Origin: Neocallimastix lanati (nom. inval.)
Lineage: Eukaryota; Neocallimastigomycota; Neocallimastigomycetes; Neocallimastigales; Neocallimastigaceae
NCBI GenBank assembly: GCA_016946835.1
Contig: JACVTC010000045.1
Span: forward strand, 1,148,501-1,212,500
Direction: 5' to 3'
Length of the DNA: 64,000 nt
In this document: piece by piece, positions 1 through 60,200 of the stretch
Numbering within the stretch: the first letter of the stretch is position 1
Layout: each line of letters begins with the position of its first letter
Notes under the pieces: model-generated
Databases searched by the model: none
Told to the model about the DNA's origin: nothing
The model's input: the letters and a program-made list of their open reading frames with translations, nothing else
Translations under genes and position numbers: made by a program

Positions 1-1232
1 TTAAGATATATTCTTTTTTAAAATTTTTAAGATATGAATTTTATTTTAATAATTATTAATCTCTAAAATTAATTCTTATAAAGGTTTAAGGATTAAAAGA
101 TATTTATTAATGAATATTATTTATTTATAAAATTATTTATAAAATTATTTATAAAATCGAATAAATATTCAATGATTTTATCATATTATAAAGTTAATAT
201 TTTATTTATGTAAGTTATTTTTTTAAATATATTTGTAAAATCTTAAAAATTTAAAACTTTATAATATAGTTAATGTTATTTTTGTTATATTTAAGTATAA
301 TAAATATATTTTTTCTTTTATAATTCCTATTTTTTTTGTTTTAATTTTTATATAAAAAAATTTATTTGTGATTTACAATAAAACTAAATATTTATTATAA
401 ATATATAATAAATTGTAAATTTTTTTTGAGATAAAATTTTTATTTGGATTTAATTATAAATTTTATTGAATAAAAAATAAAAATAATTCTTCTAGATTAA
501 AATAATTAAAAATATTATGTATGCATTTCAAATATCTTTTTGAAAATTAAAAAATTTAAAATTTCAATAGAGTTTCTATAGAATTATATATAAAACAAAT
601 AATTCGGTAAATATAAAATAATACAATTTATTTAATTTTCGTTCTACAATAGGTAGAAACATTTATATTAGTAACGACAAAATATTGTTGGTAATCACAA
701 TAAATAAAAGGAATTCATTGATATATATAAGAATCTAATTATTCTTATGATGAAATCACCTTATTAACCATGGATTTGTTAGATTATTAAAGAAGTTAAT
801 TTGACATTATAGCAATAAAATGAAGAAAATTTAAAATCATCACTAAAAATGATTTAAAGGAATTCTTTCAGTCTAATTAATTTTTTAATTTATAAAATTA
901 AAAACAATAATATTTTAATAATATTTTTTGTTTCATTTAAATAAATTTTTCGTTAATCGCTATTTAAAATTCTAAATAAAAATTTATAATAGATATAAAT
1001 AAGAAAAATTAGCAAAAAATATTTTTTTATGAATACATTAAATTAAATTTATTTATTTTTTAATAAAAATTTTAATATATTAATTAATTAAAAATATAAT
1101 TATTTAATAAAAATTTTAAGATTTTTATAACTTTATTTATTTTATTTTTAAATTAAAATATAAAAAAAATATATAAATATTTAATAAAAATTCTATTTAA
1201 AAATAAAAAATTTTTATTAATAAATAAAAAAA
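1..1232. other. AT-rich spacer, no gene seen
   Basis: This stretch is almost pure A/T with short direct repeats of ttataaaattatttataaa near 125-155. No open frame with protein-like composition was found on either strand. The last 100 bases are A/T-only leader in front of the glycosyltransferase start and presumably contain its promoter, but no distinctive element can be named. Confidence 0.6.
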
Positions 1233-1994
1233 ATGAATTTAATTTTTGGAGTATTTTTAATTACTTTTTTATTTCTAGAAATATTTATAACGAATATTAA
1301 TGCCTTACCATTATCCATTGTTGTGCCTGTATTTAATACAGCATCATACTTAGACAGGTGTATAAATTCAATATTGAATCAAACTTTTAAAGATTTTGAA
1401 TTAATATGTATTGACGATGGATCAACAGATAACTCCATGGAAATATTAGAAAAGTATAGAATAACCGATAATAGAGTTAAAGTTATTCATTTTGAACAAA
1501 ATAAAGGTGCCAGTGCTGCAAGAAATGAAGGAATCGAAAATGCAAAAGGGGAATTTATTGGATTTGTTGATAGTGATGATTATATTGATGAAAGATTTTA
1601 TGAAAATCTACTAAAAAAATCAAATGGTTATGATATTGTGGTTGGTCAACTTGTTTTAAGTACTAATATTTCTAAATTTTATTATAAAGAAGAATATAAA
1701 GATCATTGGTCAATTTATGATTCAATTTGGAAAAAAGAGTTCTTAAATGAAAATAATATCAGATATGATGAAACATTGAAAATTGGAAATGATTATGCCT
1801 TTAATGTACTTGCTTATAAATATAATCCAAGAATTATGAACTTACCCGATGAAGGAATATATTATTATTACAAGAGAAGAACAGGTTCTCTCAGAAATTT
1901 TTCAAAAAAATCTTTAAAAAAATTTAATAAAATTGCACAAAAAAAATTTAAAATCAAAAAAAAGCATTTAAAGAAAAGAAAAGAATATTTTTAA
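1233..1994 (+). CDS. Family 2 glycosyltransferase with signal peptide (copy 1)
   Basis: Single-exon 253-residue protein. Residues 1-24 form a hydrophobic signal peptide ending NINA, followed at once by the GT-A fold start LPLSIVVPVFN. The nucleotide-sugar/metal motifs are visible: DDGS at 61-64 and DSDD at 113-116. A GIYYYYKRRTGS motif closes the domain near residue 220. The last 30 residues are very Lys/Arg-rich. The family transfers a sugar from a nucleotide-sugar to an acceptor; donor and acceptor cannot be told from sequence. The domain is of the bacterial WcaA/EpsJ type, so horizontal acquisition is likely (inference), yet a eukaryotic signal peptide places it in the ER/Golgi lumen or outside. 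The start is the only ATG giving the signal peptide. A close paralogue lies at 4865-5626 and a third at the right end of the window. Confidence 0.88.
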   Translation: MNLIFGVFLITFLFLEIFITNINALPLSIVVPVFNTASYLDRCINSILNQTFKDFELICIDDGSTDNSMEILEKYRITDNRVKVIHFEQNKGASAARNEGIENAKGEFIGFVDSDDYIDERFYENLLKKSNGYDIVVGQLVLSTNISKFYYKEEYKDHWSIYDSIWKKEFLNENNIRYDETLKIGNDYAFNVLAYKYNPRIMNLPDEGIYYYYKRRTGSLRNFSKKSLKKFNKIAQKKFKIKKKHLKKRKEYF

Positions 1995-3440: not shown

Positions 3441-4864
3441 AAATAAAAACACTACAAATTTTATATTTATGAAAAATAAATCATAACTAAATTAAGTTAA
3501 TATTTAATAGAAACAATCAAGTACATTTATAGGTACAAACTAAGTAATCTTAATATACACAGTAATATATATGCGCAAAATAAAATTTAAACAAAATTTG
3601 TTACTATTAATAGTACCCAATAAATTTTATTATAATATGCTAAAAATCAAAAGTATAGCATTTACACCCCAGGTTTCAATGACTACATTGATAAATACCT
3701 ATATGAAAATGCAAATATACCTCCTATAGTGATTATTGTGTTGTTAAAGAATCAAATATAGTCAATATTATATTAAAACCAATAAAATACCTACAGAGAA
3801 CATATATGTTAAAATATTTATATGCTAAAATTTGAAATATAACAAATATTGTATATATAAAAAAAAATTATTATGTTACTTTTTAAAAAAAAAAAAAAAA
3901 AAACGTCCACTTAAATTGCATTTATTTATATAATTATATTTACATAAAATAATAATAGCATGTTTAACACATATTAGGACAATATCTTTATACATTAATA
4001 ACTAAATTTATAGTTTGATAATTTAACAAATAAACCCTGGTATATAAGAAACATACACTATTTATACATAAAAGTATTTACTTTGTAATAAACTATTTCC
4101 ATACTATGATTATGTGAAATAAAATATAATAATATAAAAGATTTAAGAAATCAAAATTTAAACTTTTTTTTTTTAGCACAAAACTATATTTAGAATGTAG
4201 TTATTTTAATGTGCATTTATACATATCATCATAGTATATTTATATAAAATGAAATAACGAATAGGACTACTATATATCAGAAATCTCATATAAAGTAATT
4301 TTAAATTTAATAAAATTTAAATATTCCAGAAAAACATAATAGAATAGTAATTCCTACCTTGAAATAGACTCAAAAAAAAGTGAAAAATATAATAAATAAT
4401 AAAAAGATTTTTATATTATTTATTTTAAAAAAATAAAAAGTAATTGAAATAACAAGTAATTAAGACCATTTGAAACTTGTAATTTGTTACAAAATAATCA
4501 TTTTAATTAACATATTAATTTATTTATACTTTGTTATTTTAATTATATTCATATAAGTTATTAATATGTAACATTATTTATTTAAAAACATTTATATTTA
4601 TTTTAAATTTTAATGTTTTATTTTTATTATTGAAAAACTTTATTTCATAAACTAATATAAAATTAAAAATTTATTAATTAAAAATTATAAATATTAAAAT
4701 TAATTTCTACTAAAGAGTTTTTCTTTTTTGAAAGAAAAAAAGAATTAAACAAATTTATTTTTTAAAGGTTAAAATATTTAGTATTTTATATTCTTAAAGA
4801 AAATTTAATTTAATATAAATATTACTTAAAGCTCTTCCTATATTAAAAAATATTAAAGATAAAA
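3441..4864. other. AT-rich spacer with a diverged repeat
   Basis: No gene seen. About 3990-4250 is a diverged copy of 36520-36760: shared blocks include tttatacataaaa, aataaaccatttcca-like and a tatgtgaaataaaat-like stretch. The repeat family was not identified. The 100 bases before 4865 are the leader of the next gene. Confidence 0.4.
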
Positions 4865-5626
4865 ATGAAATTATTTAATAGTTTATTCCCAATTATTTAT
4901 TTATCTTTAGAAGTATTCTTAAAAAACACCTTTGCATTACCATTATCAATTATTGTACCTGTATATAATACAGGGCCTTACTTGGATAGATGTATAAAAT
5001 CAATTTTAAATCAAACTTTCAAGGATTATGAACTAATTTTTGTTGATGATGCTTCAACTGATAATTCATTAGACATATTAAAGAAATACAAGGAAACTGA
5101 TAATCGAATCAAAATTATTCATCTGGAAATAAATAAAGGACCTGGTGCAGCAAGAAATATAGGAATGGACAATGCAGAAGGAGAATTCATAGGATTTGTT
5201 GATAGTGATGATTATATTGATGAGCGATTTTACGAAAGTCTAATGAAAAATTCAAATGAATATGATATAGTAATAGGTCACAAAGTAATAAGTACTAACA
5301 CTATGGAATACCATGAAAAATCTAAAAATTCTGCTATTTGGAATGTATATGAAAAAGTTTGGAGAAAAACGTTTATAAAAAATAATAACATCAGATTTAA
5401 TGAAACAATGAGACATGGTGGAGATGATGTAGAATTTAATAATTTAGCTTATACATTCAATCCTAAAATTTTAAAATTACCGGATGAAGGAATTTATTAT
5501 TATTATAAAAGAAGAACTGGTTCTAGTACATATATTTCTAAAAAACAATTAAGAAAATTTGAAAAGAAGGTTAAAAAGAATTTAAGAAAACAGAAAAGAA
5601 TTAATAAAAATAAAAAATTTCTGTAG
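4865..5626 (+). CDS. Family 2 glycosyltransferase with signal peptide (copy 2)
   Basis: A 253-residue, single-exon paralogue of the gene at 1233, with the same length and domain layout. It has a signal peptide at residues 1-24 (ending NTFA), then LPLSIIVPVYN, DDAS at 61-64 in place of DDGS, DSDD at 113-116, a GIYYYYKRRTGS block and a strongly basic C-terminal tail. The two proteins are about two-thirds identical by eye, so the duplication is not recent. The most divergent region is residues 125-190, where acceptor specificity usually lies, so the two may act on different acceptors (inference). The decayed LTR at 5651 begins only 24 bases after the stop. Confidence 0.88.
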   Translation: MKLFNSLFPIIYLSLEVFLKNTFALPLSIIVPVYNTGPYLDRCIKSILNQTFKDYELIFVDDASTDNSLDILKKYKETDNRIKIIHLEINKGPGAARNIGMDNAEGEFIGFVDSDDYIDERFYESLMKNSNEYDIVIGHKVISTNTMEYHEKSKNSAIWNVYEKVWRKTFIKNNNIRFNETMRHGGDDVEFNNLAYTFNPKILKLPDEGIYYYYKRRTGSSTYISKKQLRKFEKKVKKNLRKQKRINKNKKFL

Positions 5627-7735: not shown

Positions 7736-8810
7736 ATACATTTGTAGCCAGTATTTATAATGCTTTGATTTGTTAAATATTATAAAAAAATTTAATATAT
7801 ATATTAAGTATATTAATATAAAATTAGATATAATATTATAAATTATTTTTATAATAAATATATTTAAAAAATTAAAAATAAAATTATATAAATAGAATAA
7901 AATTATCATCATTTACTGTATTTATTTAATATTAAATAATAATAAATAATAATCTAAAATAAATAAATATTATTTATATTATATATAAATTAATGTTTAA
8001 TATAAAATTATTTTTTTATTTTAAATTGCATTTTCTAAATGTCATAATATTTAATAAAATATAAAACATATTTCAATAATTTTTTAATTGATTATATTAA
8101 AATTTTAAAAACTAATATAATTTATTTATATTTTATTTTTAACAAAACTATTATAATTAAATGTTTAGAAACGTAATAAATATTATTTAAAAAAAAATTT
8201 TAATAATAATTTATAATAATTTGTTTTTTTAGATATAAATTTTTAATTATATTGATTATTTACAAATAAACTTTTAATTATTTTAGAAATACATATTAGT
8301 TTTATTTAAAAATTGAAAAATGATTAAATTAATACTAAATATTATAATGAAATTTATTAATTTATTCTAATAAACAATAATTTATTATAAATAATATATT
8401 TATAAATATTATTTATTTAGATATTTTAAAAAAATATATATATTTATAAAAATTAAATAAAATTAGTTGAAACTTAATATAAGAATTACGTATTTTAAAT
8501 TTATAAAAGAATATATAAAAATCTATAAAATCTTATTATATTAATTTCAAAATTAATAAAGCTATATAATATTATATTAAAATTTAAGTTAATAAAGACA
8601 GAAAATAATTTATTTTATTTAAATATCTAATAAATAAATTTAGTAATTATATAATTTATTTATTAAATTAAATATTTTAAAATTTTAATTATAAATATAA
8701 AAAGTGTAATTTTTATTCAGTTTGAAAAATATTTAAAGTAAAAATTTATTATTTAATATTTTTTAAATTTATAATAAATTTTAAATTTTTATTATAAAAT
8801 ATTAAAGAAA
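7736..8810. other. AT-rich spacer, no gene seen
   Basis: About 1 kb of almost pure A/T with no credible frame. The final part is the leader of the dehydrogenase gene. Confidence 0.5.
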
Positions 8811-11159
8811 ATGCTTTTTGAATCACTATTAAATAATGAAAATGAATGTATAATTAAAACTAATGACAAAATCGATCATTTTTCATTTAAAAAGCTCTTG
8901 AATCGACCATTAAATGTTTGCTATATTGGAGCTGGATATGTTGGAGGAACATCAAGTTCAGTAATGGCTTATAAATGTCCAGAAAAAGAGGTTATTGTAA
9001 CAGTTTGTGATGTCGACTCCAAAAAAATTGATTCATGGAATTCTAATAATGTAAATTTTTTATTTATATTATTTATATATTATTTTATATAAATAAATAT
9101 TTTTTTCTAATATTATCATTGATATATTAATATAAAAAAATTTGTATTATAACTACAAAGCTTCCAATTTATGAACCTGGATTAGAAGAAATTGTAAAAG
9201 AGAGAAGAGGAAAAAACTTATTTTTTACTGATGATTTAGATAAATCTATATATTCTGCTGATATTATATTTATTTCTGTTGGCACTCCAACTAAAAAGCA
9301 AGGAATAGGTGCACATCAGGCTGCAGAACTTAGGTGTGTTAAATATTTTAATTAATTTATTTTTTTAACATATTTGAGCTAATTTTAGAATTGCTTCATT
9401 TTCTTTTTAAATATATTAATATTAGTTTAATAATTTTTATAGCTACATAGAGAGTGCTGCTAGAAAAATTGCTACCACATCAAGAAATTCAAAAATTATT
9501 ATAGAAAAGTCAACTGTTCCTTGTAAAACGGCTGAACATATAAGGGCTATATTGGATGCAAATAAATTAAAAAATAATGCATTTGGTAAGGAAATAAATA
9601 TGAATTTAAAGTCTCTAAATTTTAAATAGAATAAAAATGGTAGTCCCCTCAAAATTGGTTGTATTTTCTTATATAAATATATTTTAATATTTTTTGAATT
9701 TAGATAATCTTAAATTATTTAAGGAAAATGTCAAGAACGACAAAAAAAATATAATGAATATGTCACGTTCAAGTAGTAATGCTACTTTAAATGAAAATGA
9801 TACAGTATTTGATGAGAGTAGAGATTTTAATAAAAATGATGAAAGTTTCATACATTTTGAAATTTTATCAAATCCAGAGTTTCTTGCTGAAGGAACTGCT
9901 GTAAATGATATTCTTAATCCTGACAGAATTTTAATAGGAGGATTACCAACAAAGAAAGGATTAATTGCTCAAGAAATAATATGTAAACTTTATTCCTATT
10001 GGATTCCTAAAGAAAAAATTATAAAAATGGGACTCTGGTCAGCTGAGTTATCAAAATTAGTAAATTATTATATTTATATCAATTTTAATTAATTTTTATA
10101 AATTAGATTATAATAAAAATTATTAAATATCTAATTTCACTTTAAAAAATTTAAAGACAGCAAATGCATTTTTAGCTCAAAGAATATCTAGCATTAATTC
10201 TTTAAGTGCTTTATGTGAAGAAGTTGGTGCGGATATTCAAGAAATATCTCATGCCTGTGGTTTAGATTCAAGAATAGGACCCAAATTCCTTAATGCCAGT
10301 ATTGGTATAACAATGCTTTTATATTAATATATATTAAATATATATATATTTATAATCTAAATAAAAACTAATTATAATTTTAATATAGGATTTGGAGGAA
10401 GTTGTTTCCAGAAAGATATTTTAAATTTAATCTATCTCTCAAATTACTTTAATCTTCCAGAAGTTGCTGATTATTGGAAACAAGTAATTACAATGAATGA
10501 ATATAGAAAGACTAGATTTATTAAAAATATTTTTAATAAACTGTTCCAAACTATTAATGGAAAAGTCATATCTATATTTGGTTTTTCATTCAAAAAGAAC
10601 ACTAAAGATACAAGGTAAGTTAAATATTATATTTGAAAGGAATTTCATTTTTTAATATTATTAATATATTAATACCAAAAAATATTAATAGAGAATCTCC
10701 TGCAATAGCAGTAGTGATAGCGTTATTAAGAGAAGGTGCTATAGTTAAAATATATGATCCAAAAGTAACTCTAGTACAAATTAAAAATGATATAAAAGAA
10801 AACAGTGATAATGTAGAATATAATGGTAATTTAAAAAATAAATAATAAATTATAAATTAGTATACATTTATATAACTTATTAATCAATATATAATTATTT
10901 TTATATTTGTATTCTTTAAACAAAAAAAAAAGACTATATTTCAAATGTCATAGTTTGTAATTCATGCTATGAAGCGTCTGATGGTGCAAATGCCATTGTA
11001 ATATGTACTGAATGGGATGAATTTGTATCTCTCGATTATAAAAGAATTTATAATCAAATGTTGAAACCTGCTTTTATGTTTGATGGAAGACTCATTTTGA
11101 ATCACGAAGAATTAAAAAATATTGGTTTTCATGTAGAAGCAATAGGAAAAAAATTATAA
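8811..11159 (+). CDS. UDP-glucose 6-dehydrogenase, eight exons
   Basis: Oxidises UDP-glucose to UDP-glucuronate with two NAD+ in the cytosol. Exons I can place with GT-AG borders and matching phases: 8811-9050, 9161-9333, 9443-9585, 9704-10059, 10157-10304, 10389-10614, 10692-10825 and 10933-11159. Together they give 1647 bases, or 548 residues. The NAD-binding motif GAGYVGG is at about 40-46, EKSTVP in exon 3, [10 protein letters not shown] and WSAELSKL in exon 4, and the catalytic-cysteine motif [10 protein letters not shown] (Cys about 359) in exon 6. Exons 7-8 give YDPKV, TEWDEF and FDGR of the UDP-binding C-terminal domain. The protein is about 50 residues longer than the animal enzyme. 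It has a roughly 30-residue N-terminal extension and an Asn/Ser/Lys/Asp-rich insert at the start of exon 4, before the FEILSNPEF block. The seven introns are 77-118 bases and extremely A/T-rich. The reading frame is intact, so the enzyme should be active. Confidence 0.93.
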
Positions 11160-47654: not shown

Positions 47655-47982
47655 TTAACAAGATTTCCTGATGTAATTATCATCACACTTTTGATACTCC
47701 TCTACAACATCAGTTATTAACATATTTTGATGAGAAGGACATTGATTACTATTCAATACAGCAAAAGTTTCCTTATTGACATATACGTAGTTATTCTTTG
47801 TGAATTTGTCTATAAATAAATAATAATAAAATTATACATTCAAAAAAAAAATATTCATTAATGAAGGAATAAACCATTTCTTTGTAAAATCTATGATACT
47901 AATTTTTGTCAATTTTTATAATCTAACTAAAACTATAAAATAAAATTATCCTTTAAAAATAAAAATACTAAATTATATTTCT

Positions 47983-48016
<34 letters not shown>

Positions 48017-51000
48017 CACTTTTAGTTTGTTTCTTTTTTTTTTTTTAATATTTTTTATATTTATATATTAAAAAAAAAAAAAAATTATACAGAACTTACA
48101 ATTTTTGTTAATAGCTGCTGAATTTTTATCAACTTTAACAATGGCATTTGCTCCACTATTAATTCCAAATATATTACCCTCTTTATATTGTATTAAATAA
48201 TTGCCTGACGTGTTGGAATCTATCAAAACTGGATAAGCTTTGTCAGTGTAATTAACACATAAATTAAGTTTACCATTACCATCGACAAAGAGTTTACCAA
48301 TATCATCTGAATTTCCACAATTACCAAGAGTGTATACTGTACAATCAAGTTTTCCACTTCCAGTTACACATTGGTAAATTTCATCTTTAGAGTTGATATA
48401 GTATCCAGGAGAATCGACCTTAGAACAACTGAAGCCACTCTCCTTCTCGGAATCTTCTTTACAATAGTAAATGGTTCCTTTGTTGCTTGCAGTTTTTCCT
48501 GTTTCTATAATATAATCGGTAGCTTTGACATTGTAGTACTTGCTGTCTTCACAGTTTGCACCAGTATTTACTCTACATTCTTTTTCGGAAACACAAGAGT
48601 TAGTTGTGGTACCATCACAAGTAATGGTATAATTTTTGTCTGTACCATCGAGTTTTCTACATGACTGTTCATTTTTGCTTACACATCCAGTACTACTACA
48701 CTCTATAAATTTCGTGTCAGCATCACCGTCTATAAAGTATAATTTATCTTCTCCGGTTAAATTGGTTGTAATGGATACACACTTCTCCTCATTACATGTA
48801 ATATATGATTTAGCATTTCCATTATCAATGTAGGCAACACCCTGATTTTTATTAGATTCCATTGTCAAACAAATAATGACATTGCTAATACTGTCACATT
48901 TAATCACATTGTTAAGGTTACCAGCATCAACATAATATCCACTTGTGAAGTTATTGATCCTAGAACAGGAAGTGGCAATGGTATCGGTACATTGAATTAA
49001 TTGTCTATACTTTAAGGTAGTTCCAACTTCTGGTATGCCACTCAAATAGTAACCTACTGAAATCTTATTGACAATCATACAGTTACCCGAGTCATCACAT
49101 TTATAGAGATATTTCTCTTCGTCTTTCTCATACAAGTGGAAGGAAGAGATGACCTGTTCAAAAGATAAACTATCTCTATTATAGACGTAGATGATACCGG
49201 TTGAACTGATACCCCATTCGGCTGCCTTATATTTATTTCCAATTTTTTCAATTAAAACATCCTCAGTTTTGGCTTCACACTTTCCATCCTCGGTTGATTC
49301 ATAAATAATATTATTACTTGAATAACAGTAGTAGCCACTATCAATATTGTTACCGTTGTTGTCCTTACATAAGCTTTCTCCATTTGTAATTCCAGATTCA
49401 CAACCCGAAGAAATTGCTATTTTTACACAATGACACAAAATATTTTAAAAAATATTATATTTAAATGAATAAGTCATAGTAATTTTTAGAAAAAAAAAAA
49501 AAAAAAAAAGTTAATTTTAATAATAAATTAAATTAAAAATTGCCCTTCCTAATTAATACTAGCAACAACTATAGCTAATAATTTTAATTTTAATTAAACA
49601 GATATTTACCTGCAGAAGAAATACATCCTTTTCCGGAGACACAATTAATGGTTCGATTACTGTCACTTCCATCTACCTGAGATCCAGTTCCTTTAGAGGT
49701 ATCCTTGACACAACTGACGGCTTGAGCAGAGGCAGAACAGGTAATAAGATATTCAATATCATCAGCATAAATGAACTTCTTTTCACTGGATAAATCAGTC
49801 GTGGTAAAGGTTGTGACAGTACAACCGGTACTGTTACAGGTGATAATGGATTTTCCATCAGCGTTGACATAGGCATGAGCATTGGCCGTGCTTCCTTCCT
49901 TGGATTCACAGCCGCCGCTATTACTAACCTTAATGACTTTATTCGTTTCTTTGCCATCAATATAATATATGGTATTTTCATTTTGTACATTGGTTGATTT
50001 ATCGTTTACAGTACAGGTTTGACCAACACAGGTGATAATATTTTTGTTTATATTACCAGAAGACTTATTATCAATATAGGCATGACCAGCAATAGCACTT
50101 CCTGTTTCTAAGTTACATCCATCCGCATCTGTACAGATAATGACTTTGGATTGATCTAATTGGTTTACAAAATTTAATTTAGATGACTTAAGGTCACTCG
50201 TCCTGTCATTGTATTCATAACGACTATTACTTTGATAGATAATACTTTTCTTCATAGGATCACCAGAATCGATAATGGCATTATTATTTAGACCCGTACC
50301 ACTATGGAAGTTCACTTTGCTACATCCACTGGAATTACATTTTATCAAGACATTTTTTTCGTCTTTTTCTGCAAATTGATTAAAGTAATAACTATCAGTA
50401 GTGGGTTTTGGCGATGCAATCACCTTAATGAGATCTTTTGAAATGGAGAGGAAGACAATATCTTCTATGGCAGCTCCATAATACTTATTGGCTTCCTTAG
50501 CATTGAAACCAATTGTTTTGACGTTATCATCCGTTGGAAGTGGAACAGTTCTTGAATCAGTTCCATCCGTAAAACATAATAATTTACTATCTGTACTGAC
50601 ATAATTACCAGTATCTTCAGGTGCACAATTTGATCCGCTCGTATCGACAATTTCACATCCTTCATCCTTCCAACCATTACAATGAATCGTTTTTCCACCC
50701 ATGATCGCATAACCCTTAAACAGTCCACATTCGGTAGGGGTACAATGGTAGGCCAATACATCGGTTCGGGTTTCGGTCAGTTCACTGAGAGCCTTACCCT
50801 TCGTATCAAAGAAGAGTAGTTGTCCATCCTCATCTACAGTTTTAACGGTACATCCACCGTTACTGGTTTCATAAATCTTTTTAGAGGTGGCATGCCAACA
50901 AAATTGTCCCTCCCTTGCCCCATTGAAACAAGGGCTACTGGTAGAAATGGTTTCGGAACAGGCGGTCAGGCTGTCATTTTCCATGAGAACGGCCGCGCCA

Positions 51001-54000
51001 TCTGAAATCTTTAAGGTAATCTTTCCACCGGCAGCAACACCAGGGAATTTATTTACTGGGACTTCTTTAAATGATTTGTAGATCACCGTTCCATCGGATA
51101 TTTTCTGAATTTCTATTCTATCCGTATTATCTGTACCACAGGTATTATCATAACAAATATATACAGTGTTGTCTCCATAACCATAGCCATCAGACAATGA
51201 ATCAATGTAAGCGATTCCGGTGAGTTTTTCCTTTAATTTTCCATTCTGTTTATCCTCTATTTCTTCACAAATTGTTCCATTACATTGAATGACTGGCTTT
51301 ATATCATCTTCTAATTCATTATCATTTAAAAAGTATCCCTTGACGGTCTTACGTTGTAAATGACAACCATCGTATTTACAGGTAATCACTCGCTTACTGA
51401 AGGTATCGAGGAAATGAGTAATATCTGTATCATAATATTCACCTATTCCAAATTCTTCGATATAACATTCTGATAGAGCACTTTCACCAGTTTCCTCGTC
51501 CCCGTATCCATAGTAATAGTCAGATTCTGTCTCATCACAGTAAACTAAGGCATCATATCCAGGTTCTTTTCCCTTTCCTTCACCATCATAAACGGTAGCG
51601 AAATTATAGTAATAACCTGGTTTAATATCTATTAAAATTTATATAAAAAAAATTACAAAAGAATAAAAATAAATATAAATATATATTACATATACAATTT
51701 ATTATCAGAGTTGGATAAAAAAATTTTTTAATGCGATAAAAAAAAATATTTAATAATATTATATATCAGAGATAAAAATTTTATTCATTAATAAATTATA
51801 AATAAATAAATTAAAAGAAAAAATGGACTTACTTCTGGCCAAGACGGCATAATTTTTATTGAATCTAATTAAAACATTACCATCCTTCAAGGTATTTGGG
51901 AATGGCGTTTCTCCATTTTTGAAAAAGACTTGTCCCTCCTCTCCGAATGGAATACTAATTAGTTTAGTGTTATCAAAGAGATATTCATAGGTATTTTCAT
52001 CTTCATCCACCACATTAATACACATTCTGAAGGTTTCTCCATCAAATTTATAGGATCCGGTGGCAGCAAGATTGATTGCATTTTTTACTTGCTCCGGAGT
52101 ACTGCTTGTTGAACCTGAGCATAGATCATCATGACTTTTATCTTCATTGAGATGAATACATCCGATAGGATTTGATAGAGGTTCGAGGGAATCATCTTCG
52201 GCATTTATATTATTACCCATATAACAATTGACAAACTCATTATTACTACCATACTTGATGAAACCACTACTTTGAAGACATTTCTCGTCCGAACAATCGT
52301 AGATAACAAAGAATGGAGTCAATTCCTCTGAATTTGGAGATACGCTATCCAAGGTGGAGGTAACATCCACAAATTTATTAAAAGTACTCGTTCTCTGGAA
52401 TATTTTTATACCAGTGGCCGCAGCACCAGTGGCATCCTTTCCAAACATTATCTTACAATTGCTACTATCCTTCTTTAGGATAGTAGTACCGTCATATTTA
52501 AGACAGAATTCATTAGTTTGAATGGAAGTGGTTTTCGTGTCACAATTCGTATCTTCACACACTTTACAATTGTCATCACAAAGAGGAAGTTGTGGACCTT
52601 TTTAAAATTATAAATATATAAAAAAATATTAGTATATAGGATTCATATTTATTTATTTAAAATTTCATAACAAAAAAAAAAATAAAAAAGGATCCATTAT
52701 AATTTATAATTTTTCTTTTTTAAAACTTTATCACTAATATCATTAAAATTTTTATTTTTAAAATGTTAAAAAAAAAATTAATCTAAAAGTTTTCATCACT
52801 ACTAGAATTATTCTATCATTTTTATGTAAAAAATTTTTCCTTCCTCTATTCTATTATAAAATATTAAAATCAAAATTAAAAGTAAAATTTTTTTTCAATT
52901 ATATTCCGTTATTACTAATTAAAATAGTAAATGTTTTAATAATAGTTTTATATTTATTTTTTTTCTGTTTCATTTTTATTTTTCTATTTGTTTCATCAAA
53001 ACAATATTCTAATAATTTTTTTTATATTCATTAATAATAAAAATTCTTACTGTGTTTGGCTAAAGTGACAACATTAGCGTCAGTTCTAAGAAGAGCAATA
53101 TTTGAGTAGGCGGCATTGGCAAAGTCCACATTTGTAGGAAGAGGATCATCAAAAGTATACGGTCTCAGGACGTAGTTCTTTCCATCAACAACGTTAACCC
53201 ATTTGGATTTTGTCTCGGTGGTGGCGTGCGCATCACCTTTTTTACCACTAATATCAATACGATCCAAGACACACACCTCTAAAGTTTTTACGGAACCATT
53301 CACGGTAAATTTAATGTTTCCTTGGTCGTTAGGATCTTCACACTTCGTATTAGTTACCTGACTGGTGATATCTATTGTGTCATCTTCAGCAGATTTGTAT
53401 ACCTTTCCATTATTTTGAATGTAACCAGAGGTTCGTATACATTCACCGTAGGCACAGTGATAGATAGCTAAGTAGGGATTGGTGAGTGTTGCAGAGATAT
53501 CAGATATTAAAGCAGTTTCAAGAACATTTGAGACATTAAAGATCTTTAAGCCTTCATCCTTCTGAGAAACTTTAAATGCTATTTCACATTTTTCATCTGC
53601 TATACCCTTATATATGGTTTTCGTATCAGATATACAATATTTATTCTGTTTTAATTTTGAATTATTATTTATTGGTAGTGTACATACACCATTATTAATT
53701 GTACAAAGAGGTAAATCCACTATTTCATTATTTTATTTTTTTAAATAAATAAATATAGAAAAATTATTAAATAATTATTTCAATAAATAAATCAATAAAT
53801 AAATATTTTTATAATTCAAATTAAATTAAAAATATATTTTTAATACAACTTTTAAATATTTCTATATATTAATAATAAATATAAAATGATAATTTAATTA
53901 AAAATTAAAAAAAAAAATTAAAATATAAAAAACTATAATAAAATTAAAAAAGTCACTAAAAACACAAAGTATTCAAGATTTTTAATTTTAAATATAGATA

Positions 54001-54985
54001 TTTTCAATTAAAAATTATTCAATCTCAAGTATTAATGAATCACCTTTTAGATTTATAGAATTCGCTTTGATATCAACAAGGATTTTTTGTTCACTTTTCA
54101 TTCCAAATACATTGTTTACACCATACTCTAGTAATTTTTCACCAGTATCTGCAAAGGCTTTTGCTTTATCTAATGTTTTCTCTAAACAAATTGCAACAGT
54201 ACCATCGCTCTTAAGACCTAGTTTACCTACATTCGAGGCACTACATTTATCCGTAGGTTTGGCATCTAATTTTCCGAAAGTATAAGTTCCATCAGATTCC
54301 CTTTTCACGAATATATATTTTCCGCTTTCCATATAATATCCAACTTTAGTTGAATTGCTAACATCGCTGCAGCTTCCAATATCTGTTCCTGAACAAAGTA
54401 ATACAGATTTATAAACCCAATAAGGTCTGGTAGTAGAAAGTGTTGGAAGACTAGTAAAGTAATATTTATCTTTTGTGACATCGCCAGTTTTTTTGGCACA
54501 TGTACCATCTACACAATCATATAAATATGTGGAATCGGGGTCCAAGTAACTTGTGTCGACATACTGAGAACAACCATTATCATCACATTTATAGATAAAT
54601 ACAGTTGTTTCAGTGCTATCAACTTTAGTGTAATCAGATTTGAAGAAGTAAATATCAGGATCTGTAATAGCTGCACATTTTGAATCACTTGTCGTATAAT
54701 AAATTTTACCATCAGTATGAATACAATAATTATTTGCATTTATTGCAGAACCATCTGATTTCTTACATTTTGTATCTGAAGAAATACTTTTACACTGTTG
54801 TAAACCTTTTTTTTACATATTTTTAAAAAAGTATATTTTTTTTTGAAGGTTTAATTTTTTAAAAATAAAATAATATTAATAGTTTTTCCAAAATAAAACT
54901 TTTATAAATATTTTTTTTTATTTTCAAAATTTATTTTATTCATCATTTCATTATTCTAATATAGTTTTTATTAATTATCTTTATG

Positions 54986-55016
<31 letters not shown>

Positions 55017-57215
55017 TTTTTTGTTTCTAGTTTTATTTCTTTTCTAAATATCGTTTAATTATTAAAAATTCATTTTCTTTTTTTTTTTTTTTTAAACAAT
55101 ATATTACCTTTAGAAGAGAAACATCCACCATTCTTAACACAAGTAATTGTATAGGTTGCATCAGTACCATCAGCAAAGAAAGCTACATTAGTTTGGAGAT
55201 CACTGGTCTTTTTTATGGTACATTCAGCTGCTGCTTGATTTTGAGCAGAACCTTTACCAACGCATTCAATATATTGTTTTGGATTAGCTGGATCAAGCAA
55301 ATAGACTTTATCATCAGCTTTTACCAAATTTGCAGATTTATCCAAAACAGTACAAGCAGTTCCATCACCTTTACATGTTATAAACTTTTTATTAGAAGAC
55401 GTTCCTGTCTCTGAGGCATCAATGTAGGCGTATCCTTTTCCTGAAATACCGGTGAAGGATATACATTTAGGTTTACCGGAAGTAGCATTTTGGTCACATG
55501 AAATGATATTACCGACGGTACCGGTATCAATGTAATAGCCATCTGGATTTTCAACCAATGGACAACTTTCATCAGTACATAAATGTAAATTACCATCGGT
55601 ATCCACATAATAATTTAAATTATCATCATAATATTCGCCTTCATCTTTCATATCACAGGTCATTCCATCACAGAAATAAAGTTCATTGGGATTTAAGGCT
55701 TTTGCATAGTATCCATAGGAAACTTCATTTTCTGGAGTTTTTGTACAACTGTTTCCCGAACAAACAATCAAATCAGTAGCTTCTTTGTAGTAATCTAAAT
55801 CAGCAAAATCAATAATTTCATTTATACTATTCACCAAATAATTACCAGCAACTATTCATAAAAAAGTATTAATTTTTAAAAAATATTAGAAAAGAATGGA
55901 AAAAAGAATTATAGAAATAAAAAATTAAAAATAAATAATAAAAAGAAATTTTATAAATAAAACATATAATTAAAAAAGAAAAAATAATTCTTTTTGAATT
56001 ATATTCAATACTGAATATCAATCATGCATATCATTAGTGCATATTAATTTATGCACAAAATAATGAAACGAAATAAAATTAAAAAAGTACAATATATAAA
56101 ATCATCAAAGTATAAATTAAATAGATGGTAATGAAAAAAAAAATATTATTAATAAAAAGAAAGCCTACCTGCATCTTCTACGGTAAGAACATTTGCAGTT
56201 GAATATTCACCATAAGCTACTGAAATGACTTGATTTTTATTTGAAGATAAAATAAAATATTTTGCTTCCTCAACAGAAGTAAATTCATTTCCAAAGATAC
56301 ATAACATCAAAGCATTGTTTTCAATTTTAAATTTTCCTCTATTGTTACCATCACAAGTAGTGGTATCGGGAATAGTATAATCTGACCAATCCCAACTGTT
56401 ACTTTTATAAGCATATTCATATACTTTAGTACCATCACTATTTGTTACGAAAGTATAACCTGAACTTTTAGAACAGATACCTTTGTTACATTTATAAATA
56501 GCATAGCTGGAAAGTTCTCCAGCCTTAGTAACTGAACTAGTATCACCATTTACACTAATGGTATCAGTATTTTCTATTTTTATTAAATTTGCTCCACTAT
56601 CTATAAATATATTAATATTTAAATAATTAAAAATGTATTTGTATTTTTATTTTGTACCAAAAATGAAAATTTATTAACTTAGTAAATATTATTTTTTACC
56701 TGAAAAATCTGAGGTATAACCTTGAGTTAATTGTTCCAAATTAGTTCCATCATAGTAATAAATAATTTCACCTATGGTATCGTCATCTAAATCACAAGAA
56801 TCATAATCACATTCAAATGTATAATAATATCCGCTAGTTAATGTAAATATTTTACAAGAGTCCTTATTGGAAATGTAAATTTCATTTCCCTTCTTACAGT
56901 ATGTTTTTTCATCGGGTAGTGAGGCATCACATTTTTCCGATCCACTAGTTGATGCACTATTACAAGTTGGTAAACCTGTTTTAAATTAAACAGTATTATA
57001 AATTTTAGAACTGACATTTCGTAATATTTTATTTTAAATAATTAATTTATATTTATAGTAAAATTCTATATGAAAATCTTATTTATAATCTATAATTATT
57101 TTATTTAAATAAAATACCCGTTAAATCATAATAAGCTTTTACAACTGTAATAAAAGTAATTATTAGTAATGGCTGTAGTAATTTACTTTTATAGATGAAA
57201 ACAATGAAATATATA
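47655..57215 (-). CDS. Large Cys-rich GYY-repeat secreted protein, scaffoldin-like
   Basis: Exons on the minus strand with GT-AG borders: about 57215-57118 (uncertain), 56975-56700, 56600-56169, 55851-55108, 54805-54044, 53719-53051, 52597-51833, 51628-49610, 49416-48100 and 47809-47655, about 2,400 codons. Every junction is phase 1. One kind of exon opens LPxC or xxxC, then YC-xxx-IY-xxx-C, and ends near ANxxVxVxxN. Another, larger kind carries repeated CxxxGYYxxxxxxxIxCxxxxC units and ends CxxxGGCxSSxG. Short repeats such as GYYIDTG, KFITC and AYID recur. The donor at 54043 is GTGATT, weaker than the rest; if not used, the exon would end at a stop at 54015. The uncertain first exon reads LLIITFITVVKAYYDLTG, signal-peptide-like, but I see no in-frame ATG. 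Anaerobic-fungal scaffoldins (cellulosome scaffolds that bind dockerins) have such repeats. The identification is from memory and is moderate. No transmembrane segment is seen at the C-terminus. Confidence 0.75.
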
Positions 57216-60200
57216 AATTTCGATCATTAAAATAAAGAAGCAACATTTATATTGTATAACAAAATAAAAATAATAAAATAATAAATTTATTTATAAAATA
57301 TTAAGAAATTTAATAAAATATTAGTAAATGAATTATCTTTTTTTTTAATTTCATATTACTTTTTTATTATCATAAGAAATTTTAAATATTTAATGAATCA
57401 TACTAAAAGTCTTATTATTAAATTTGACTTCAATTTTAAACTATGAACATTTATATATATATTGATTGACTTTTCTACATTTATTTTTACATTAACTATT
57501 GTATTAACTATTGTTCCACTATTACTATATAATAAACTTTTTCTTTTTTTTTATTATCTAATATGCACACTTACCTAATTTTATTTTTATTTATCATTCT
57601 TTAATAGAAAATACAAATTATATAATATAAAAACAAAAACAAAAAAAGTCGATTATTCCCTCAACAATAAATATTAATATTAGATTATATATGAATTAAG
57701 ATAATATATAAAATGACAAAAGGAATAATAAAAGAAGTAAAAAAAAATAAAAGAAATGAACGACTTTTCTATATTTTTTAAAAATAAATTATTTTATTTA
57801 AATTTATATAAGTTTTATCTTTTTTAAAGTTTTTTTTATATTTATTTATTTTATTCTACTTTTTTTTTTTTTTAAGTTGGGATTAGAATACTTTTAAAAT
57901 TATTTAATAAAAATAAAAAAACTAATTTAATTAAAGATATTCATATCCTCTTATAAGAAAGATTTTCATTAAAAAATAAATGATAAAGTTTAGTTAAATA
58001 ATTAAAAACAAAATTGAATTTCTATGAGGAGTTCAGGATAAATACAATCTTATAAATAATAAATAAATAATAAATAATAAATGTTAAAAAGAGTATTTAT
58101 AATAAATAATAAATAATAAATAATAAATAATTGAATAATAAATAATAAATAATTGAATAATAAATAATAAATAATTGAATAATAAATAATAAATAATAAA
58201 TAATAAATAATAAATAATAAATAATAAATAATAAATAATAAATAATAAATAATAATAAATAATAAATAATAAATAATAATAAATAATAAATAATAAATAA
58301 TAAATAATAAATAATTAGTAATAAATATTAAATATTAAATGATAAATAATAATAAATAATTGAATAATAAATAATAAAATATTTAAATAATAAATAATAA
58401 ATAATTATCCAGGATAAACTTCAGAAGAGAACCAACTACTAGATTTAATTTTTCGCCCCTATACCAAAATTTGATGAATAATTTACATGTCAGAGTTTCC
58501 TCTGACTTTACTCTGTTCAGCGTGGTTAATAAATAATAAATTATAAATAATGAAAAATAAATATTTAATAAATAAACAAATAATTAATTAATTAATAAAA
58601 ATTTTTAGTATTTATAACATTTATAATAAAAATAATATTAATTTAAAAAATTATATATTTTTTTATTATTTTATTTTATTTTATTTTATAACACACAATA
58701 ATCCAAAAATATAAAAACATTTGAAATAGTAATTTTAAAAATTTATTTCATTAATATACTAATTTTTTTTATTTCATTTAATTATTATAGTTTTATTATG
58801 AGTTATTTTTAGTTACTTGAAGTAGTAATAATAATGAAAATCCATAAAAATAAAATGTATTAAGTGTTCGTTATCTTATGAAGTAATAAAGCTATAAAAT
58901 ACAGATGTTGAATTTTCCTATATCAAATTTTCTATATAATAAAATATAATTTATATGATTGATAATGGTAAAAATAATAAATAAAATTAGTTATTTCAGA
59001 AGGATGAATTAAATAACAAGTATTAAAACTATTGATAAAAAAAAATCAATAAATATAAAGATATTAATTTAAAAAACGAAATATTATTTTGATATCAATT
59101 TATTGTTATTTGTCAAATAGTAAACAATATAATTAAATAAATATTTTTATGTAATAAATAATAAATAAAAATAAATATTATGTAATATTATAAAAACAAA
59201 GTAAAATAATTTAGAGATAAAAATAATTAAAAATTAATAAATAAAAGAAAGAAATCAATTTTTTATTTTTCTATAGATCTAAAACTACAGTTTAAAAAAT
59301 CGTTTTTTTTTTATCATCAACTCTTTAAAATTTTAATAATAAAAAAATTTATAAAATTTTCTTAAAAACAATAATAAAAAAATGTTTCTTTAAAGAACAA
59401 AACCAAAAAAAAAAAAAAAAAAAACAAAAAAGAAAAAACTTTCCTTTTTTAAGATGCATATATTAATTATTTTCTTATTTTTTATTTTATTAAATATTTT
59501 TTATTCACATTCTAACAGAAATTGTTAAATAAAAAAAAATTTTAAATGTTTATTTAGAGAGAACTTTTTTTTTTTTAAAAAAGATATATAAATAAATAAT
59601 TGATTTTAAATGCATTTTTTATTGTTCTATAAAATAATACTTTTATTTACTGGTATCAAAGATATCTTAATATAAATTAATTAGTAAACTTCTTTAATAT
59701 ATATAATTTTTATTATTCATAGAAATTTGTATTCATATTTTTTCTTTATTTTATTTAATAAAAAATAATATAATTATTAATATGTTCTGATGAAAAAAAA
59801 ATTTAATATTATTTATAATTTTATGTATAACTTTAACTCTTCTCTTTTATCATAATGAAACATTATTTTTTAAAATATTAAAAAAAAACAATTAAAATAC
59901 AAAATAAGAAAATTTATTTTTAAAACTTTTTAATACATAATTCTAATGTTAAGTCAATATTTAATATAACAATAATCGTTAAAATTTAAGATATGATTAT
60001 AATAAATATTTTTTATATGAAAGTTAATATCTAAGTTATATTAATTTATGATCATTTATAATATTTATTATTTTTTTTTAAAAAAAGTATTAATTGTAAA
60101 TCTTTTTCGAATTTCATTTACTGTTCTTTAAAAAAATATTTTCTTTCTATTCAAAATATATCGTAATAATGAAATATAAAATATATTATATATAAAATCA

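Follow-up and report, generated by a model that had tools for sequence, protein, structure and literature searches.

Gene structure at the locus

The window analyzed here is the whole 64,000-nucleotide stretch C390:1148501-1212500 of Neocallimastix lanati (nom. inval.), part of an assembly of 199 Mb and 762 contigs that was searched as well. Its minus strand carries, at 57223-47655, a gene that most likely belongs to the scaffoldin-type backbone family of fungal cellulosomes. Exons rebuilt from the sequence number ten and are separated by nine introns of 99-453 nt, each GT-AG and each in phase 1; these junctions, like all others below, are predictions from DNA sequence. The original prediction had listed nine phase-1 introns and internal exons of 276, 432, 744, 762, 669, 765, 2019, and 1317 nt, all of which we reproduced exactly, and the uniform phase-1 exon layout is confirmed for the window gene. 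The G+C content of the gene region is 27-34% over 48-56 kb, above that of the rest of the window.

All exons and introns are given here on the minus strand. The gene opens with exon 1 (57118..57223), an open frame without an in-frame ATG that includes a leader-like hydrophobic stretch (by eye), and intron 1 (56976..57117) leads to eight internal exons, all of class 1-1. Exon 2 (56700..56975, 276 nt) has a six-cysteine module (LPTC) at its start, and exon 3 (56169..56600, 432 nt), which lies beyond intron 2 (56601..56699), begins SGANL and is weakly similar to a 5' exon of a giant gene on contig C212 (E = 4.6e-4); by eye, exons 2 and 3 resemble one unit split in two. After intron 3 (55852..56168), exon 4 (55108..55851, 744 nt) consists of short GYYID...C...C repeats and has GCFSSKG at its end. 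Intron 4 (54806..55107) is followed by exon 5 (54044..54805, 762 nt), again with a six-cysteine module at its start, and intron 5 (53720..54043) by exon 6 (53051..53719, 669 nt), which, like exon 7 (51833..52597, 765 nt) beyond intron 6 (52598..53050), is a whole unit. Downstream of intron 7 (51629..51832), exon 8 (49610..51628, 2019 nt) combines repeats with a core module at 50418..51419 (about residues 70-403). Exon 9 (48100..49416, 1317 nt), between introns 8 (49417..49609) and 9 (47810..48099), has a six-cysteine start, then repeats and a terminal end module. The short C-terminal exon 10 (47655..47809) carries the stop codon, and its sole other match in the genome is exon 10 of the closest paralogue.

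The junctions were also called with a custom splicer, which combines codon usage, intron dinucleotides, and generic splice weights, has no phase term, and was trained on the window gene. The splicer chose the identical nine junctions; any solution in a different phase scored at least 8.6 nats lower, and intron 2 had no such solution at all. Because it had learned from this gene's codons and introns, that result is a consistency check, and the real test comes from other genes.

The closest paralogue (C390:957570-947536) lies about 240 kb away on the same contig and has ten exons, an intact start and leader, and no internal stops. The splicer gave it nine introns, all in phase 1, and internal exons of 270, 405, 738, 765, 657, 768, 2046, and 1329 nt, all multiples of three. 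The ratio of nonsynonymous to synonymous substitution rates (dN/dS) between the two genes is 0.49 over exons 2-9 (2279 codons), and exons 2-10 of the window gene are open. Based on this ratio and on the paralogue's exon lengths, the body of the window gene looks constrained.

The 5' end differs between the two copies: exon 1 is hydrophobic (signal peptide judged by eye), with a start that is broken in the window gene and intact in the paralogue. A gene start at 57215, as predicted originally, did not hold up: there is no start codon at that position, and the ATG at 57227 yields MIEIYIFHCFHL and then a stop after 12 codons, being one base out of frame with exon 1, which carries one extra base in the alignment with the paralogue. 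An alternative ATG at 57246 would require a 42-nt intron, for which the paralogue alignment has no matching acceptor.

Identity to the paralogue is 92-99% over about 52500-50400 (exon 7, intron 7, and part of exon 8) vs 72-90% elsewhere, with intron 7 reaching 95.6% over ungapped columns. This tract is likely the product of gene conversion. A second high-identity stretch (89-94%) lies at 55800-55200.

Intron phase across the family and in control genes

Paralogues with mixed phases had been named beforehand as the finding that would speak against the proposed layout, and we looked for them among ten scaffoldin-like genes of the same genome. Counting only calls at least 5 nats above any other phase, and leaving aside a broken-frame fragment on C30, we found phase 1 in 46/46 introns: nine each in the window gene and its paralogue, four, three, and five in the C41 genes A, B, and C, two each in C212:602.5-616.5 kb, a second C212 gene, and a C511 gene, four in the C357 gene, and six in the C9 gene. 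Five more borders visible from one side (four acceptors and one donor) also fit phase 1 and stand outside the 46. Uniform phase 1 is the rule for introns called in intact family members of this genome.

The C41 genes form a tandem cluster (C41:56000-101000) of three scaffoldin-like genes with the end of one more upstream and the start of another downstream; the gap between B and C is mostly low-complexity repeat.

In control genes, called with the same splicer and margin, 10/25 introns are in phase 1. Those of the chaperonins and UDP-glucose dehydrogenase fall into phases 0, 1, and 2 in numbers of 10, 9, and 3, and three introns of subtilisin-type proteases are in phases 2, 1, and 0. The controls are thus chiefly intracellular chaperonins plus one dehydrogenase, the proteases counting as secretory only by the name of their family; most of the 82 protease matches have their domain within one open frame. 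For the chaperonins, 12 loci were fetched and nine analyzed, after which the near-identical C146, C749, C24, and one of C100/C89 were dropped. The window gene (9/9) differs from the controls with Fisher p = 0.0018, and the family as a whole (46/46) with p = 3.6e-9, although many of the 46 introns are homologous and hence not independent; with only about seven junction classes taken as independent (our own grouping by flanking module), p = 0.0058. Seven control calls had been excluded: u4 of the UDP-glucose dehydrogenase (UGD), C457 i2, and three glycosyltransferase/lectin introns for margins below 5, and C757 i2 and i3 for a wrongly picked open reading frame. With all seven restored, phase 1 accounts for 11/32, and the window comparison gives p = 0.0005.

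The UDP-glucose dehydrogenase control gene (named by eye) lies in the window itself at 8778-11156 (+) and has eight exons with mixed intron phases (0,2,1,0,1,2,1; the margin of the fourth is just 4.6). The chaperonin genes occur in closely similar pairs on different contigs (C89/C105, C312/C146), which suggests unmerged haplotypes or large duplications in the assembly.

Modules, exon borders, and whole-exon differences

A module with six invariant cysteines opens ten exons, namely window exons 2, 5, 6, 7, and 9 (five of the eight internal ones) and five exons of the C41 genes, with starts that agree to within two residues. The splicer called the acceptors of eight; we placed the remaining two, at the first exons of C41 A and B, by hand, and each has a single AG within 75 bases upstream, in phase 1. 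The alignment of exon 5 with the second exons of C41 B and C begins at residue 1, and within the window gene, exons 6-7 and exons 5-9 align near their starts. At the other end, exon 4, exon 8, and the first exon of C41 B all close with one type of repeat.

The core, about 330 residues long with 28 invariant columns in seven copies, is common to exon 8, C41 exons, and the C212 giant and is also present in two C357 exons; a BLASTP comparison gave no match to it among the C9 exons. Exons of C41 A, C41 C, and C357 stop where the core does, whereas window exon 8, C41 B exon 3, and the giant run on past that point. Exon 8 therefore contains a module border (about residue 403) without an intron, at a place where its C41 and C357 relatives have one. 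Thus, the claim that exons begin and end at module borders stands insofar as exon borders are module borders, but some module borders lack an intron. BLASTP alignments reach within 12 residues of both exon borders in 28/156 cases at the start and 37/156 at the end, counts that are descriptive only, with many pairs orthologous and some borders hand-set.

Whole exons also differ among relatives. Exon 6 has homologues in the paralogue (75%), in C357, where it forms a whole exon (residues 9-220 of 222, 34%), and as a degenerate copy in C30; exon 7 has homologues in the paralogue (90%), in C357, again as a whole exon (254/254 residues, 44%), and in C9 and C30. Sequence comparison found no match to either exon in the C41 genes. 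C357 continues past the homologues of exons 6 and 7 with two core exons and an exon like C41 A exon 3. Of the core exons, the first aligns from residue 1 with exon 8 and stops at the core's end. The last fetched exon matches C41 A exon 3 over its whole length, its residues 2-435 (of 435) pairing with residues 5-447 (of 447); we placed its 3' border by hand, at a point where the best donor is in phase 1. Both later C357 exons have counterparts in C41, while the window gene gives only partial matches to C41 A exon 3. The degenerate pair resembling exons 6 and 7 at C30:391500-399000, with its broken frame, is apparently a relic of the family.

The C9 gene repeats a multi-exon cassette, with exons B-C-D beside E-F-G. 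BLASTP pairs C with F (nearly full length) and D with G, and B is matched to E by position only; D contains a fused copy of the unit of exon A, and G a partial one.

Introns appear or vanish at fixed borders in the C41 genes, and the phase stays the same. Apart from the closest paralogue, the best exon 8 matches fall in long single frames, and units therefore exist also without flanking introns. In the two C212 genes read to their end, phase-1 introns precede a single long final exon (frames of 3254 and 2223 aa), which closes in both with a hydrophobic tail like a glycosylphosphatidylinositol (GPI) signal (by eye). A possible origin of the giants as retrocopies of an intron-rich gene was considered; the C212 giant retains two 5' introns.

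When 36 of the 46 introns were compared with one another, matches occurred only between orthologous pairs and in one weak other pair, and the intron breakpoints are presumably too old for detection. Spread of introner-like elements was rejected on the same comparison.

Family attribution and origin of the exon layout

We attribute the gene to the scaffoldins because of its resemblance to published descriptions and the presence of dockerins in the same genome, where 150/150 scored matches to the fungal dockerin PF02013 (of 1440 candidates) were above the cut-off. Scaffoldins are described as large and repeat-rich, unlike bacterial parts, and widely varying in size and anchoring, and they occur with and without a C-terminal anchor (PMC8262932); neither the window gene nor its paralogue ends in a hydrophobic tail that would suggest a membrane or GPI anchor (by eye), unlike the two C212 genes. 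Scaffoldin counts range from 23 to 101 across seven anaerobic-fungus genomes, with 96 in N. cameroonii var. constans (PMC12341934). The ScaA-type scaffoldins of Neocallimastigomycota are, compared by description, likewise large, repeat-rich, multigene, and unlike bacterial parts, in dockerin-rich genomes (PMC8262932, PMC10978972, PMC6690862). We infer that the family proteins are secreted.

Domain searches gave the modules no name. For the eight internal window exons, scans against Pfam and NCBIfam returned nothing over cut-off, the Pfam cohesin domain included (best Pfam E = 0.023, below its cut-off), and PDB searches with exon 8, a core profile, and a start-module profile found nothing significant (best E 0.25 and 0.48). 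One scan of prokaryote genomes with the core profile, from which a single peptide pattern was usable, found no relatives. An AlphaFold2 model of exon 4 alone had a mean predicted local distance difference test (pLDDT) score of 40 and was not used. The likeness to clostridial cohesin/scaffoldin systems would lie in a presumed role of carrying dockerin-bearing enzymes, and the difference in the lack of any Pfam family at cut-off in the eight internal exons. The cohesin of anaerobic fungi has itself been termed elusive (PMC8262932). The hairpin-like GYY repeats look, by eye, like the glucan-binding repeat solenoids of glucansucrases, although the PDB profile match (E = 0.48) is not significant. 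The cysteines are a point of difference from the glucansucrase repeats.

The gene is probably built of exon units bounded by phase-1 introns and shared across a large, cysteine-rich, secreted repeat family, in which they would have been duplicated, lost, and recombined as units. Each unit would follow a simple grammar, with a six-cysteine start module, then short GYYID-C-C repeats or the larger core, then an end module. With the same phase at every border, the reading frame would survive if single units or cassettes of several units were duplicated, lost, or recombined by way of introns, and in other members, where border introns are missing, units may have fused into larger or giant exons. 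The observations underneath are the uniform phase of the predicted introns, homologous exon borders, whole-exon presence and absence, and cassette duplication. We favor duplication and loss of exon units because whole exons and cassettes differ between gene types; followed by intron loss, duplication of exon units gives the observed layout, whereas independent insertion at homologous borders would be less economical. Recombination inside introns, and loss rather than gain of introns, are the steps that we infer.

Several points weigh against shuffling of exon units. The conversion tract runs across exon borders, and the ten exons of the window gene recur one for one in its closest paralogue, with no gain or loss. 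The broken-frame C30 fragment set aside above was forced to phase 2 (margin 5.3), although the family still stands at 46/47 with it counted (p = 3.8e-8). The stretch that forms one exon in C41 B is divided into two in C and three in A, which is intron turnover at fixed sites without shuffling. Among the 37 exon 8 matches, ten occupy single unbroken frames of 3253-3264 aa, and the frames of another two measure 2329 and 2271 aa; repeats within single giant exons cannot be reached by exon shuffling. The homology among the 46 introns counts here as well. Thus, of the animal-like exon shuffling first proposed, the phase-1 symmetry, the homologous borders, and the whole exons and cassettes present, not found, or duplicated among relatives are borne out, whereas shuffling as the general way of varying repeat number is not, given the giant frames and the unchanged exon set of the closest pair.

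Some of these points feed a different account, in which old insertions at AG-containing linkers of a secreted repeat protein by themselves favored phase 1. The units would have increased in number through ordinary tandem duplication, unequal crossing-over, and gene conversion, and the symmetry of the exons would not have been a cause. AG proto-splice sites in the coding sequence of the window gene do favor phase 1 (46%, 176/382), a phase-1 excess in secreted proteins is documented (PMC1626468, PMC8001218), and both the variable introns at fixed C41 sites, present or absent without exon loss, and the conversion tract across exon borders agree with this account. Still, at that bias nine of nine would be expected with a probability of 0.46^9 = 0.0009, and 46/46 is harder still, though not all are independent; five window exon starts share one module position, and whole exons are present or absent among the window, C357, and C41 genes. 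We regard this account as rather unlikely.

Two further alternatives concern the window copy itself. It may be decaying or mis-sequenced, its 5' end no longer giving protein and its exon pattern inherited, which would be compatible with the family explanation. The missing in-frame ATG and the extra exon 1 base relative to the intact paralogue point that way, whereas the open exons 2-10 and the dN/dS of 0.49 do not; a start at 57246 with its 42-nt intron is conceivable as a rescue, yet lacks an acceptor counterpart in the paralogue. On balance we think decay or mis-sequencing unlikely. The locus could also hold two genes, split at the donor 54043 of intron 5 if that site is unused: the donor (GTGATT) is weak, and the read-through frame stops nine codons later. 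We argue that it is used because the paralogue has GTAATT at the same place, together with the same next exon, and C357 shows an identical order and phase for its homologues of exons 6 and 7 and the core exon after them; we think a split very improbable.

Set against known systems, the exon units resemble the class 1-1 modular proteins of Metazoa, which share the extracellular type, introns all in phase 1, the correspondence of exon and module, and the re-use of modules across genes (PMC8001218). The differences are the fungal host, modules without a Pfam match at cut-off, and borders that often lack introns. Exon shuffling has been treated as restricted to Metazoa and described as an animal speciality, and the cause of the phase-1 choice in class 1-1 shuffling is debated (Patthy 2021, PMC8001218). 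Searches of an open-licence library gave no account of exon structure or exon shuffling in fungal scaffoldins. A wider reading, to which we give slightly less than even credence, is that class 1-1 exon shuffling evolved independently in anaerobic gut fungi, in secreted and probably enzyme-carrying backbones, with the giants arising by later fusion of units. If true, this would be a second, independent case of class 1-1 geometry, in which proto-splice bias, secretion, and shuffling could be compared as causes, and it would provide a concrete module grammar for the scaffoldin-like proteins of anaerobic fungi.

Elsewhere in the window, a Copia-like retrotransposon with gag- and pol-like frames (named by eye) lies at 35365-29708 (-), with degenerate copies at 20707-19075. 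Three related frames resemble family-2 glycosyltransferases (1224-1991 (+), 4847-5623 (+), and 64000-63446 (-)), two of them with a leader (by eye).

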